A stretch of DNA of 64,000 nucleotides from Brachybacterium aquaticum. GTDB lineage: Bacteria > Actinomycetota > Actinomycetes > Actinomycetales > Dermabacteraceae. Positions 41,368 through 63,699 of this stretch are shown here, piece after piece; the first letter of the stretch is position 1; the number at the start of each line of letters is the position of its first letter. Where the stretch lies: contig NZ_JACHLZ010000001.1 of the NCBI RefSeq assembly GCF_014204755.1, positions 2,914,001-2,978,000 of the forward strand, written 5' to 3'. A program made the position numbers and the translations under genes. The notes below the pieces were generated by a model. That model saw only the letters and a list, made by a program, of their open reading frames with translations, was not told the DNA's origin and did no database searches.

Positions 41368-41386
41368 TTGAGTCATAGGGACTCAT
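41368..41386 (-). promoter_or_regulatory. HAIR-like HspR operator upstream of hsp20
   Basis: TTGAGT-N7-ACTCAT (41368-41386) closely fits the HspR inverted repeat CTTGAGT-N7-ACTCAAG, with the correct 7-base spacer. It lies about 95 bases before the hsp20 start. No hspR gene is present in the window. Confidence 0.75.
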
Positions 41387-41489
41387 GCCGTGTGCGTCAC
41401 ACCCGGGCATGTCGACGTCAACTGGCCTCCGGTCGCGCACCGGCGCACCCGCCGCGCTGCACAGCTCACGCCCTCCGTACAGTGGCTCC

Positions 41490-42119
41490 ATGACCACCGA
41501 CGTGCTGCTCACCGGCTTCGCCCCCTTCGACGGCGCGGCGCTCAACGAGTCCTGGGAGGCGGTGCGCGCGGCGGCGCCGCTGCTGGGCGAGCGCGGGATC
41601 GCGGCCGAGGCGCTGGAGCTGCCGGTCGAGTTCGGCGCCGCCTCCGCCCTGCTCACGAAGGCCGTCCGGGAGCTGCGCCCGCGCCTGGTGATCGCCGTCG
41701 GCCTCGCCGCCGGGCGCAGCGCGATCACGCCGGAGCGCGTCGCGATCAACGTGCGCGACGCACGCATCCCCGACAACGCCGGCGCACAGCCGATCGACGA
41801 GCCGGTCGTCGAGGGCGGGCCCGTAGGCCGCTTCTCGCACCTGCCCGTGAAGGCGATGGTCGCCGCGCTCGCGGCCGACGGGATCCCCGCGGCCGTCTCG
41901 CAGACGGCGGGGACGTACGTCTGCAACGACGTCTTCTACGCACTGCTGCACCTGCTGGAGACGGAGCCTGAGCTGGCCGGGATCCGCGGCGGGTTCGTGC
42001 ATGTCCCATCGGCCGACGTGGTCGACTCCCCCGCCGCAGCCCGCGCCGTCGCACTGATGGTCGAGGTGGCGCTCGCGACGGAGGCCGACGTCCGCCTTGT
42101 CGGCGGCGCCGAGCACTGA
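41490..42119 (+). CDS. pcp: pyroglutamyl-peptidase I (C15)
   Basis: A 209-residue cytosolic peptidase that removes N-terminal pyroglutamate. LLTGFAPFDGAALNESWEAV is the N-terminal substrate loop; VGLAAGRSAITPERVAINVR contains the catalytic Glu; SQTAGTYVCNDVFYALLH carries the nucleophile Cys at about residue 145; GGFVHVPSAD gives the His. Length and motif order match the family. The start is the ATG at 41490. It is divergent from hsp20. Confidence 0.95.
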   Translation: MTTDVLLTGFAPFDGAALNESWEAVRAAAPLLGERGIAAEALELPVEFGAASALLTKAVRELRPRLVIAVGLAAGRSAITPERVAINVRDARIPDNAGAQPIDEPVVEGGPVGRFSHLPVKAMVAALAADGIPAAVSQTAGTYVCNDVFYALLHLLETEPELAGIRGGFVHVPSADVVDSPAAARAVALMVEVALATEADVRLVGGAEH

Positions 42120-43061
42120 CGGCCCGGTCGCACCCCGCCTCCGCACCTGCAGCGCGCCGGCTCCGCGCCGTGCCGCGCTGCACCGTGCCGTACCGAGCCG
42201 TGTCATCCCCCTCCAAGCCGTGCCGCGGGAACGTTCCGCCCCGCACGGCGCGGCCGTTGTCAACACCCTCCCCGTGCCGGGGATGAGCGACGCTTCCGAC
42301 TGTGCACATCGGGCCGTGCGCAACGCCCTCGAGGTGGACAACCGCCCCTCTTCCACCCCTCCGCAATAGTTATCCACAACGTTTTCCACCGCGGTGGAGG
42401 AATCACAGACTTGTAGTTCCGCAGGTGCGAGCGAGATGCCGGGCGTGTCGCGCCTCGGGAGCCGTCCGCGGCCGTGCGGCGGCGAAGCCTCAACCTCAAC
42501 TAGAGGTGCAACCACGCAGTAACTTCACGAAGATGCAGGTCAAGGGCTCGCAAAGTTGCCGTGCGAGCTGGGCCTCCACGGCTCGGAAAGCTCTCTCGAT
42601 GGGCCTGTCGGGCCGCTGATCACCTGGTGTGAGGGCACTGTTCGGGCCGCGGGCGGCCGCTGCGGGACGTCGTCATCCCCACCGTCCATCCACACAGCAT
42701 CCCGAGTTATCCACAGCAAGACGCCGCAATCCCCAAGGAGGGGGCAGGTTGTCCCCATCCTTGTCCACAGCTGGGGAAAACCACACCCGTGTAGTTCCCC
42801 TGCACCGCGCCCCATCGGCCGACGAACGTTCCCGCGGGAACGTCTCCGCCGCCCCTGCCGCTCCCCCGCTCTGTCACTCCCGCACACCGGCCCCGGCCCC
42901 CGCGCCTGCCCCGGACAGACTTGTGCGCCCTGTCGGTCGATGTCAGATCCGACATCGACCGTCAGGGCGCACAAGTCCGGTGGCCCGACTGCGGGTGGTC
43001 GGGCTGCGGCAAGCCGCCCGGCCCGGGGCCGCCCGGCGCTCGGCCGCCCGGCCAGCGGCCC
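42120..43061. other. 0.94-kb non-coding region with DnaA-box-like sites and palindromes
   Basis: No convincing gene in about 940 bases. The plus strand carries TTATCCACA at 42370-42378 and 42707-42715 and TTGTCCACA at 42761-42769 (perfect DnaA boxes). Near-matches are TTGTCAACA (42257), TTTTCCACC (42382) and TTGTCCCCA (42749), plus a reverse-strand TTGTCCACC (42333-42341). Palindromes are TCCACCGCGGTGGA (42385-42398) and ACGTTCCCGCGGGAACGT (42826-42843). The words GTAGTTCC and CTTGTAGTT/GTGTAGTT recur after two of the boxes. dnaA and dnaN are not nearby, so a replication origin is not claimed. Confidence 0.6.
42917..42974. repeat. dispersed hairpin family, copy A
   Basis: Arms 42917-42942 and 42949-42974 pair at 25 of 26 positions around a 6-base loop. 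The core GGTCGATGTC/GACATCGACC is shared with copies at 52970-53017 and 63494-63543. It lies about 90 bases beyond the rhomboid stop and could terminate that transcript. Confidence 0.85.
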
Positions 43062-44012
43062 TCAGCCCCCGAGCACCATCACGGTCTTCACCGCGATAAG
43101 CACCACGCACAGCAGCACCGCTGCGACCACCACGCCGGTGTGCAGCAGGGCGGAGCGCCTGGCGAGGGCCTCGCGGTCGGCGCCCGGGGTGGCCTTGGGG
43201 CGCAGGGCGAACATGCCGGCGGTGACCAGCGCACCGAAGACGAGTCCGCCGAGGTGGCCCTGCCAGGAGATGTTCGGGAACGTGAAGGTGATGACGAGGT
43301 TCAGCGCGATGAGCACCAGGATCTGCGCGGTCTGCCCGCCGAGGCGCCGGTTGACGATGAACATCGCCGCGAACAGGCCGAACACGCCGCCGCTGGCGCC
43401 GACGGTGCCGGTCACCCACGACTGGCCCATCGGGTCGGCGAGCAGATAGACGGCCGTGTGACCGCCGAGCACGGAGACGAGGTACACCGCGGCGTAGCGG
43501 ACGTGGCCGAGGGTCTGCTCGAGGTACTGCCCCACCGCCCACAGCGCGTACATGTTCAGCGCCAGGTGCATGATCCCGCCGTGCAGGAACCCGGCGCTGA
43601 GGAAGGTCCACGGCATGGCGAGCGCACGGAAGGGCGCGAAGATGCCCAGCTGCTCGACGATCTGCGGGGCGACCATCTGCCCGAGGTACGCCAGGACGCA
43701 CAGCGCGATGAGCGTGTAGGTGACCACGGGGGTGCGCTTGCCCATGCGCCCGCCCATGGCGGTGCGGGGCCGGGCACTCGCCTGCTGACGGGCGATGTCG
43801 CGCTCGCAGTCCACGCACAGCACGCCGACGTCGGTGGGGCGCTGGCACTCGGGGCAGGCGGGGCGGTCGCAGCGCTTGCAGCGCACGTAGCTCACCCGGT
43901 CGGGGTGGCGGGGGCAGACGGGCTGGCCCGGCGGCTGTCCCTGCGGGGGCCCCTGGGGCGGCGGGGCGTCGTCGGCGCTGTAGCCGTAGGTGGGTCGATC
44001 CATGGCGCTCAT
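43062..44012 (-). CDS. rhomboid intramembrane serine protease with N-terminal zinc-binding module
   Basis: A 316-residue protein. The first 80 residues hold a B-box-like Cys/His module (CPRHPDRVSYVRCKRCDRPA, CPECQRP, CVDCERD). The rhomboid core follows with six to seven helices: FLHGGIMHLALNMYALWAVG, catalytic Ser in GTVGASGGVFGLFAA and His in ISWQGHLGGLVFG. It cleaves substrates inside the membrane. Rhomboid beside ppiA and a DUF5324-type gene is a common arrangement not far from the replication origin in actinobacteria. The start may be the ATG at 44012 or 44003. Confidence 0.93.
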   Translation of the reverse strand: MSAMDRPTYGYSADDAPPPQGPPQGQPPGQPVCPRHPDRVSYVRCKRCDRPACPECQRPTDVGVLCVDCERDIARQQASARPRTAMGGRMGKRTPVVTYTLIALCVLAYLGQMVAPQIVEQLGIFAPFRALAMPWTFLSAGFLHGGIMHLALNMYALWAVGQYLEQTLGHVRYAAVYLVSVLGGHTAVYLLADPMGQSWVTGTVGASGGVFGLFAAMFIVNRRLGGQTAQILVLIALNLVITFTFPNISWQGHLGGLVFGALVTAGMFALRPKATPGADREALARRSALLHTGVVVAAVLLCVVLIAVKTVMVLGG

Positions 44013-47000: not shown

Positions 47001-47203
47001 GGCGCAATCCTCGCACAGACGCCTCCCCGACCGGCTGGACGGCCGCACCTCCGTCCCGGCTGTGAGCGGTGTGGGCCCGTAGCGTTAGAGTTGTGCCACA
47101 CGGGTCCGTGACAGCAGAGTCTCCCCCCAGGGGTCACTGTGCCGTCCGGGCCCAGGGACCGCCGTCGGCCCGACCCGACGGATACGACCGAAAGGGGAAC
47201 CCC

Positions 47204-47992
47204 ATGGCGCTTTCCACCAAGCGTGAGGCCAAGAAGGCCGAGAAGCACGCGTCCAAGGCCGCCGACGCCGCGTCGGACGCGGTCAGCAGCACCGCCCAGA
47301 ACGCCCAGAAGGCGGTCGAGGAGCTGCAGAAGCTCGCCGCCCAGGTGGGCCCCGTGGTGTCCGAGGGCGCCCGCGAGGCGCGCTCCAAGGCGTCCGATCT
47401 GTACGGCCAGTACGCGCCCGAGGCGCAGGCCCGACTGCGCGAGCAGTCCGAGAAGCTGACCCAGAACCTCGGCCCGCGCGCGCAGAAGCTCCGCCACGAC
47501 GTGGAGGACGACTACCTGCCGCGTGCGAAGAAGACCGCCGAGACCACCGGTTCGGTGCTCAAGGCCGCCGTCGACGCCGCCCGCAAGGAGCTCGACAAGG
47601 GCCAGGGCGACATCCGCGCCGCGATCGTGGAGCCCACCCCGCAGAAGAAGAAGGGCCGCGCCGGCAAGGTCCTGCTCATCCTGGGCCTGGCCGCCGCCGG
47701 TGCCGCTGCGGGCTACATCGCCTGGCAGAAGACGCGTCCGGTCGAGGACCCGTGGGCGCCGCCGGCGGACTTCGCCCGCGCGCACTACCCCGCCTCGGCG
47801 GGCACCGAGTCCGACTCCTCGACCGTGTCCGACACCGTCGGCTCGGCCGACGCCGGTGACGTCGCCTCCGCCCTGAAGGGCGAGGACCGCTCCTCCGACG
47901 TGGAGCCCAAGGAGGTCAAGGTCGAGTCCGACGAGACCGCCTCCACCGCGGCCGACGAGGAGAAGCGCGGCAATCACCGCGGCGACGCCTGA
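47204..47992 (+). CDS. DUF5324-like membrane-anchored coiled-coil protein
   Basis: A 262-residue protein starting MALSTKREAKKAEKHASKAA. Its first 150 residues are helical Ala/Lys/Glu repeats, apolipoprotein-like; KKKGRAGKVLLILGLAAAGA then gives a single membrane helix, followed by WAPPADFARAHYPASAG and an acidic Ser-rich tail. This layout resembles the actinobacterial DUF5324 family found beside ppiA. Function unknown; an envelope or chromosome-linked structural role has not been shown. AAAGGGG precedes the ATG at 47204. Confidence 0.75.
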   Translation: MALSTKREAKKAEKHASKAADAASDAVSSTAQNAQKAVEELQKLAAQVGPVVSEGAREARSKASDLYGQYAPEAQARLREQSEKLTQNLGPRAQKLRHDVEDDYLPRAKKTAETTGSVLKAAVDAARKELDKGQGDIRAAIVEPTPQKKKGRAGKVLLILGLAAAGAAAGYIAWQKTRPVEDPWAPPADFARAHYPASAGTESDSSTVSDTVGSADAGDVASALKGEDRSSDVEPKEVKVESDETASTAADEEKRGNHRGDA

Positions 47993-52944: not shown

Positions 52945-52969
52945 CTGGCGGCCGGGTACAGCCGACTTC

Positions 52970-53017
52970 TGCGCGCTCACGGTCGATGCCGAGGCCGACA
53001 TCGACCGTGAGCGCGCA
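52970..53017. repeat. dispersed hairpin family, copy B
   Basis: TGCGCGCTCACGGTCGATG (52970-52988) and its exact complement (52999-53017) enclose a 10-base loop. It lies 25 bases after the YhgE/Pip stop and also faces the 3' end of the UDP-glucose dehydrogenase gene. See copies at 42917 and 63494. Confidence 0.9.
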
Positions 53018-53147
53018 CAACTCAGCCACGGCCATCGTGCATGGGGAACAGTTGCTGGAATCCCTCACGCATTCCTGCACGTGTTCCCCGCGCGCTGCTC
53101 ACGTCAGCGCCGCGCGGCACGCTGTCGATCACCTGCCCGCGCGCGCA

Positions 53148-63379: not shown

Positions 63380-63493
63380 GTCTCGGCCCTCCTGTGCTGT
63401 GCGAACACGAGGAGCCTGACGGGCGGCGGTGAGGTGGCGATGAGCCGTCGATGAGGACGTTCTCAGAGTCGGGGAGCCCCGATCAGCCCGAGT

Positions 63494-63543
63494 TGCGCGC
63501 TCTCACGGTCGATGCGGGCCGCGACATCGACCGTCAGCGCGCA
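63494..63543. repeat. dispersed hairpin family, copy C
   Basis: TGCGCGCTCTCACGGTCGATG (63494-63514) and CATCGACCGTCAGCGCGCA (63525-63543) pair with a small bulge and share the core of copies A and B. It lies about 155 bases beyond the stop of the second UDP-glucose dehydrogenase, in a 320-base region (63380-63699) with no other gene that also must hold the promoter of the glycosyltransferase operon. Confidence 0.85.
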
Positions 63544-63699
63544 CACGTCCGTCCCCGGCCACCACGCGCGGTGAACACATGCGGGAATTCCGCGGCCATT
63601 CCGACATGTCTCCACCGCGCGCCACCGGCTATCGCGTCCGGGGGCGCACACAACGGGCCCGCACGCCACGCGCAGCGGCGGAGAGGGGCAAGGTGACAG

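Follow-up and report, generated by a model that had tools for sequence, protein, structure and literature searches.

A DnaA-box module with an adjoining palindrome near rhomboid and crgA genes of Actinomycetes, a putative element for the control of DnaA outside the chromosomal origin

Escherichia coli controls DnaA, the initiator of chromosome replication, by means of datA, DARS1, DARS2 and several proteins. To our knowledge, little has been established about the sites that do so in Streptomyces, Mycobacterium, Corynebacterium and other Actinomycetes. A cluster of DnaA boxes in a gene-free region of the chromosome of Brachybacterium aquaticum, detected in a sequence-only reading, raises the question of whether such a locus is a site of the datA or DARS type, as was then suggested, or a fragment of an origin.

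DnaA boxes and modules in the pcp-rhomboid gap

The window (the whole stretch of DNA analysed, 64 kb) corresponds to positions 2914001-2978000 of the B. aquaticum genome, a single contig of 3,449,336 bp with 25 exact DnaA boxes in total, and the element described here is located at 2.957 Mb. The gene-free region of 0.94 kb was confirmed as a gap of 942 bp (42120..43061, without strand) that separates the convergent 3' ends of pcp (Peptidase_C15; 41385..42119, + strand; PF01470, 2e-55), the convergent neighbour in Brachybacterium, and of a rhomboid protease gene (43062..44012, - strand; PF01694, 2.9e-27), which precedes the element in the majority of the loci fetched from Actinomycetes. Pfam searches agreed with the earlier naming of the Ppi and rhomboid genes, and gave no convincing match for the gene described as DUF5324-type (47069-47989). 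The three perfect boxes in one orientation were found where they had been placed, in each case on the + strand: TTATCCACA at 42370-42378, an additional TTATCCACA at 42707-42715 and TTGTCCACA at 42761-42769. No other exact TTRTCCACA site exists in the whole window, and shuffled sequences had a mean of 0.06 and never three. The near-boxes mentioned together with them also appeared, at 42257, 42333 (- strand), 42382 and 42749. Groups of at least three boxes per 600 bp, with one mismatch allowed, were present in only two further places in the 798 kb examined, so that the objection that boxes might be as dense elsewhere found no support; these places are a cluster 10 kb upstream of dnaA, which outscores that of the element, and the 5' end of dnaA with its upstream region, which scores next below it. 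Neither sigma70-like promoter nor intrinsic terminator matches were found in the gap (42120..43061), no family reached the gathering threshold in an Rfam search, and a plasmid origin was rejected, since similar DNA was absent among the plasmids searched.

The boxes are arranged in a module of around 53 bp, present twice, in which a palindrome is followed by an inverted DnaA box (box I) and then by two tandem boxes (II and III) 12 bp apart. The palindrome has the pattern AATnACA-N4-TGTnRTT, and the module consensus in Brachybacterium reads GAAYKACA-N4-TGTSRYTY, inverted box TYCCMC, TGTGGAnAA and, 12 bp on, TGKGGATAAC. Two models were used to delimit and search for it, R1 (117 positions, sequence only) and R2 (56 positions, made from order-level modules). 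The core of module 1 spans 42748..42800 (- strand; 58.3 bits with R2) and, together with a conserved tail, 42685..42799 according to R1 (- strand; 92.4 bits). It consists of the palindrome GAACTACA-CGGG-TGTGGTTT (42778..42797, - strand), a probable site of a dimeric protein; box I TTTTCCCCA (42772..42780, - strand), in opposite orientation to boxes II and III; box II, which is the exact TTGTCCACA site; and box III TTGTCCCCA (42749..42757, + strand), 12 bp from box II. The additional exact TTATCCACA box falls within the tail. Module 2, the second copy, is 378 bp from module 1 (core 42368..42421, - strand; 33.0 bits with R2) and has the palindrome GAACTACA-AGTC-TGTGATTC (42400..42419, - strand), a match to the dyad pattern, a degenerate box I TCCTCCACC (42393..42401, - strand), again opposite to boxes II and III, box II TTTTCCACC (42382..42390, + strand) and, 12 bp from the latter, the other exact TTATCCACA as box III. 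Box I is often two mismatches off the consensus, and the degenerate dyad pattern has exactly two matches in the genome, one per module. The spacer contains the motifs TGACCTGCA (42534..42542, - strand) and CGCGACACGCCCG (42440..42452, - strand), the latter at a nearly fixed distance to module 2. The palindrome of the module, its duplication and the class-wide conservation beside crgA and rhomboid genes described below had been overlooked by the sequence-only reading.

The two strong palindromes that had been pointed out near the boxes were both located, and neither is part of the element. One is a near-perfect inverted repeat of 60 nt (42918-42977; RNA fold -63 kcal/mol, z -9.3), with palindromic copies of around 80% similarity at 52964-53023 and 63490-63549, as well as elsewhere in the genome, in L034 (12593-12651) and L046 (12918-12972); being a dispersed repeat, perhaps REP-like or a bidirectional terminator, it was dropped as a part of the element. 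The other, AACGTTCCCGCGGGAACGTT (42824-42843), has one of its arms again at 42223-42236, 0.6 kb away, and is outside the conserved modules.

Conservation in Brachybacterium and in the class

The relatives retrieved by means of the rhomboid protein were Brachybacterium species, and their convergent gaps carry the boxes at conserved spacing, with extra sequence between the gap and the rhomboid gene in one of them (L067). When the gaps were aligned, conservation was confined to two blocks, each a copy of one module. Columns with at least 90% identity made up 57% of the module 1 core (30/53, in 19 Brachybacterium sequences), 63% of the module 2 core and 32% of the module 1 tail, compared to 0.5% of most of the spacer, 0.4% of the sequence before the cores and 0% of that after them; the spacer motifs TGACCTGCA and CGACACGCC are at nearly fixed distances in the genus. 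A strict module pattern had matches in 30 of the 38 genomes of the genus, while the reversed-pattern control gave 0 in all of them, and R1 had matches in 46 of 47 genomes of the family, a few of them weak or at oriC.

Profile searches gave matches in 247 of 396 genomes of the order with R1 and in 242 of 394 genomes of the class with R2, tallies that reflect the number of elements only approximately, given the inclusion of some oriC matches and the strict filters. Sixty-five loci outside the family were fetched, a biased sample, since they were picked as best-scoring matches; crgA, rhomboid or ppiA was beside the module in 63 of them, and crgA plus rhomboid or ppiA in 58, the identity of CrgA being checked with Pfam at three loci. 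Two fetched loci (L249 and L253) had different neighbours. The median distance from the module was 71 bp to crgA and 151 bp to rhomboid in this set, and the commonest arrangement was ppiA-rhomboid -> element <- crgA, with the element at two 3' ends, mostly 3' of crgA and on the crgA strand. Its orientation is mixed with respect to crgA (46 against 12), and with respect to rhomboid Brachybacterium has the opposite orientation to most other taxa, which fits a role independent of orientation. At two class-level crgA-rhomboid loci (L252 and L265) a second R2 match was observed beside the main one, in opposite orientation, so that some families may have an inverted pair of elements.

The consensus for the class, taking the best row per locus, is gAAtnACAcnngTGTnaTTnTCCcCAgctGtGgAna....TGtGGAtAACT; the phasing of the palindrome and the three boxes is retained across the class, and ACA-N4-TGT is present in 81 of 81 complete palindromes. 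Eleven further genomes were selected according to family and assembly, irrespective of score, and a match at the crgA locus was found in ten (E up to 0.01), sometimes weaker than the oriC match. Palindrome and boxes were both present in the five Mycobacterium-like genomes of this group, in one of which 14 kb separate the element from the dnaA-region match, and in the four Streptomyces-like genomes the boxes were kept (3-5 in the crgA-rhomboid gap) but the palindrome was not aligned by the model, both assignments being inferred. In Dermabacteraceae no crgA was detected at the locus, although the element is kept there and doubled in Brachybacterium, and only weak crgA matches were obtained elsewhere in the B. 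aquaticum genome, within the 1.16 Mb searched. Our literature search returned nothing linking crgA with DnaA and rhomboid, and nothing relevant on crgA and intergenic DnaA boxes.

The element and the chromosomal origin

A distance of 173 kb separates the element from dnaA, which in B. aquaticum is located at 3.130 Mb and precedes dnaN, a RecF/SMC-type gene and gyrB. Samples spread over the genome, 1.16 Mb in total, were used to compute gene-strand bias and sense 4-fold GC skew, and both switch at around 3.13-3.16 Mb and 1.3-1.45 Mb and not at 2.957 Mb. As the skew contrast has the sign of leading-strand genes rich in C, only the switch points were used. Comparison with the dnaA-dnaN region of the same genome and with the skew, which had been proposed as a check, thus placed the locus away from the switch, and at the same time revealed a shared core. 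The oriC of the genus, in the dnaA-dnaN region, has the same triple-box core, TCCCCAnnTGTGGAnAAC-TGTGGA, plus the GACCTGC motif that is also part of the spacer motif TGACCTGCA, and the half-palindrome GAATGACA is present in oriC of many Brachybacterium species. R1 aligns to the oriC of the genus with a 9-bp insertion, R2 also matches it, and three of the 21 exact TGTCATTC octamers of the genome are in oriC. The block TTnTCCACnGnATCnACAGCCGTGAnGAnGAGGA, which we infer to be the unwinding side of this oriC, was found in all 21 oriC sequences (up to 7 mismatches) and in none of 25 element sequences. Over 40 bp, AT content peaked at 0.53 in the element and at 0.50 in oriC, and neither value is conspicuous. 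An active origin was rejected, given the absence of TTnTCCACnGnATCnACAGCCGTGAnGAnGAGGA and the location of dnaA-dnaN and of the strand-bias and skew switch 173 kb away. In the Brachybacterium genomes with the element and dnaA on one contig, the element was on the dnaN side, in the same relative orientation and 78-397 kb off, in 16 of 16 cases.

Other DnaA boxes were observed in the genome. The cluster 10 kb upstream of dnaA (L057, 2430-2680; genome 3140433-3140680) is denser than that of the element, with three exact and four near-boxes and 12-bp tandem spacing, and adjoins a thioredoxin-reductase-like gene. The coding sequence of dnaA itself contains boxes in its 5' half, ahead of the part for the ATPase domain (L056, 12422-12462; genome 3130422-3130462), and two more pairs of exact boxes, within around 100-230 bp, are located at genome positions 429175-429270 and 2553782-2554015.

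Possible roles in the control of DnaA

The interpretation of the element as a DnaA-regulatory site is well supported by the phylogenetic footprint, the DARS-like order of the boxes and the core shared with oriC, so this part of the initial proposal stands, and that of an origin fragment, taken as an active origin, does not; the sequence cannot decide among a datA-like site, a DARS-like site and plain titration. Many Actinomycetes have closely related versions in an equivalent location, which makes it likely that this is an old switch or sponge, so far unrecognised, and its function would probably be the timing of chromosome copying. We consider it rather probable that the element is a non-coding, DnaA-binding locus for replication control in which a second, dimeric factor, possibly MtrA, takes part. 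DnaA would bind the triplet of each module, with box I inverted and boxes II and III in tandem, and the dimer would bind the adjoining palindrome and help DnaA to assemble on the triplet. The resulting nucleoprotein complex could take up free DnaA or alter its nucleotide state, thereby tuning the time of oriC firing, and the direction of the effect would lean towards restraint of initiation. Since the element is located where two genes converge, it is unlikely to be a promoter. The palindrome left unaligned by the model in the Streptomyces-like loci, even though the boxes are kept, speaks against this explanation, as do the frequent mismatches of box I and the incomplete fit of many palindromes to the MtrA repeat described below.

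With respect to the palindrome, its covariation as an RNA stem was not above that of shuffles; a DNA site for a dimeric protein is therefore simpler than an RNA hairpin, and the hairpin or terminator reading was rejected. The MtrA motif reported for Mycobacterium tuberculosis consists of a degenerate 7-nt repeat whose units are separated by 4 nt (PMC6265350). Binding of MtrA to oriC has been reported for both M. tuberculosis and Streptomyces venezuelae, and an interaction with DnaA for the former (PMC5487470). The palindrome has a 7+4+7 structure, similar in this to the MtrA boxes at mycobacterial and Streptomyces oriC, and both halves fit the MtrA cores ([A/G]TnA[C/T], 11 bp apart) in 46 of 81 cases, the motif being very degenerate. 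Unlike those boxes, it is fused at a fixed phase to a DnaA triplet in a site other than oriC. MtrA can thus be put forward, tentatively, as the best candidate for the factor, and its binding is putative.

The closest precedents are DnaA-box clusters of Streptomyces coelicolor and Bacillus subtilis, followed by DARS. Those of S. coelicolor, outside oriC (Smulczyk-Krawczyszyn et al., 2006), are reported to repress untimely initiation (cited in PMC4585315), and the six clusters of B. subtilis, also outside oriC, influence the timing of initiation and are reported to restrain it (PMC13220808). The S. coelicolor clusters resemble the element in being DnaA boxes near but outside oriC in an actinobacterium; the locus in B. 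aquaticum is likewise a significant, non-coding cluster outside oriC. We know of no palindrome or class-wide locus described for the former. They are called H69, H24 and D78; H69 might be the crgA region, and the Streptomyces form of the element may already have been seen as one of them. These precedents, the density of boxes outside oriC and the 3-5 boxes in Streptomyces-like gaps would fit passive titration, proposed for the S. coelicolor and B. subtilis clusters, in which a high-affinity sink lowers free DnaA and the palindrome is incidental or structural. We regard this as possible but doubtful, with just three boxes per module outside Brachybacterium and a phasing of palindrome and boxes that a sink does not need and that is kept across the class. 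E. coli datA, which has an IHF site and drives the hydrolysis of DnaA-ATP, is also a non-coding DnaA-box locus away from oriC, but its layout differs and the inverted-plus-tandem triplet was not found in the datA stretch.

Like the element, the cores of E. coli DARS1 and DARS2 consist of three boxes, the first in opposite orientation to the other two, with a start-to-start distance between II and III of exactly 12 bp, and the extra site beside box I, a palindrome here and IHF/Fis sites in DARS, recalls IHF and Fis on DARS2. A DARS-like site, promoting ADP release from DnaA and stimulating initiation, nevertheless seems unlikely to us: boxes I and II are 11 bp apart instead of 14, the 12-bp tandem is a general preferred site for DnaA dimers (PMC11317965), and box order alone does not make the element a DARS, because the oriC of the genus carries the same triplet.

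It is quite improbable that the element regulates or terminates crgA or rhomboid transcripts, with the boxes serving gene expression. The element is close to crgA, mostly downstream of it and on the same strand, and the palindrome can fold as RNA, which would agree with such a role, but convergent 3' ends, the missing promoter match, covariation no greater than in shuffles and, in Brachybacterium, a doubled element at a locus in which no crgA was seen do not. A second or relocated origin, or a relic of one, is very hard to sustain, since the box core, half-palindrome and GACCTGC motif in common with oriC are countered by the strand-bias and skew switch at dnaA and by the lack of TTnTCCACnGnATCnACAGCCGTGAnGAnGAGGA.

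Returning to a DnaA-regulatory element with a second factor, the proximity of crgA outside Dermabacteraceae may leave room for a role linked to this gene. The MtrA kinase has been reported to be activated at the division site, and it is conceivable, although we would not favour it, that throughout the class a composite cis element next to the cell-division gene crgA, in which the palindrome binds a dimeric regulator such as MtrA and is fused at fixed phase to a DnaA triplet, couples division signals to DnaA activity as an actinobacterial counterpart of datA and DARS. As far as our searches reach, the composite architecture, the class-wide position and the core shared with oriC are new. An element of around 53 bp in a mostly fixed position across the class makes the question of how DnaA is controlled in Actinomycetes experimentally approachable, and its palindrome offers a handle for finding a new partner of DnaA.
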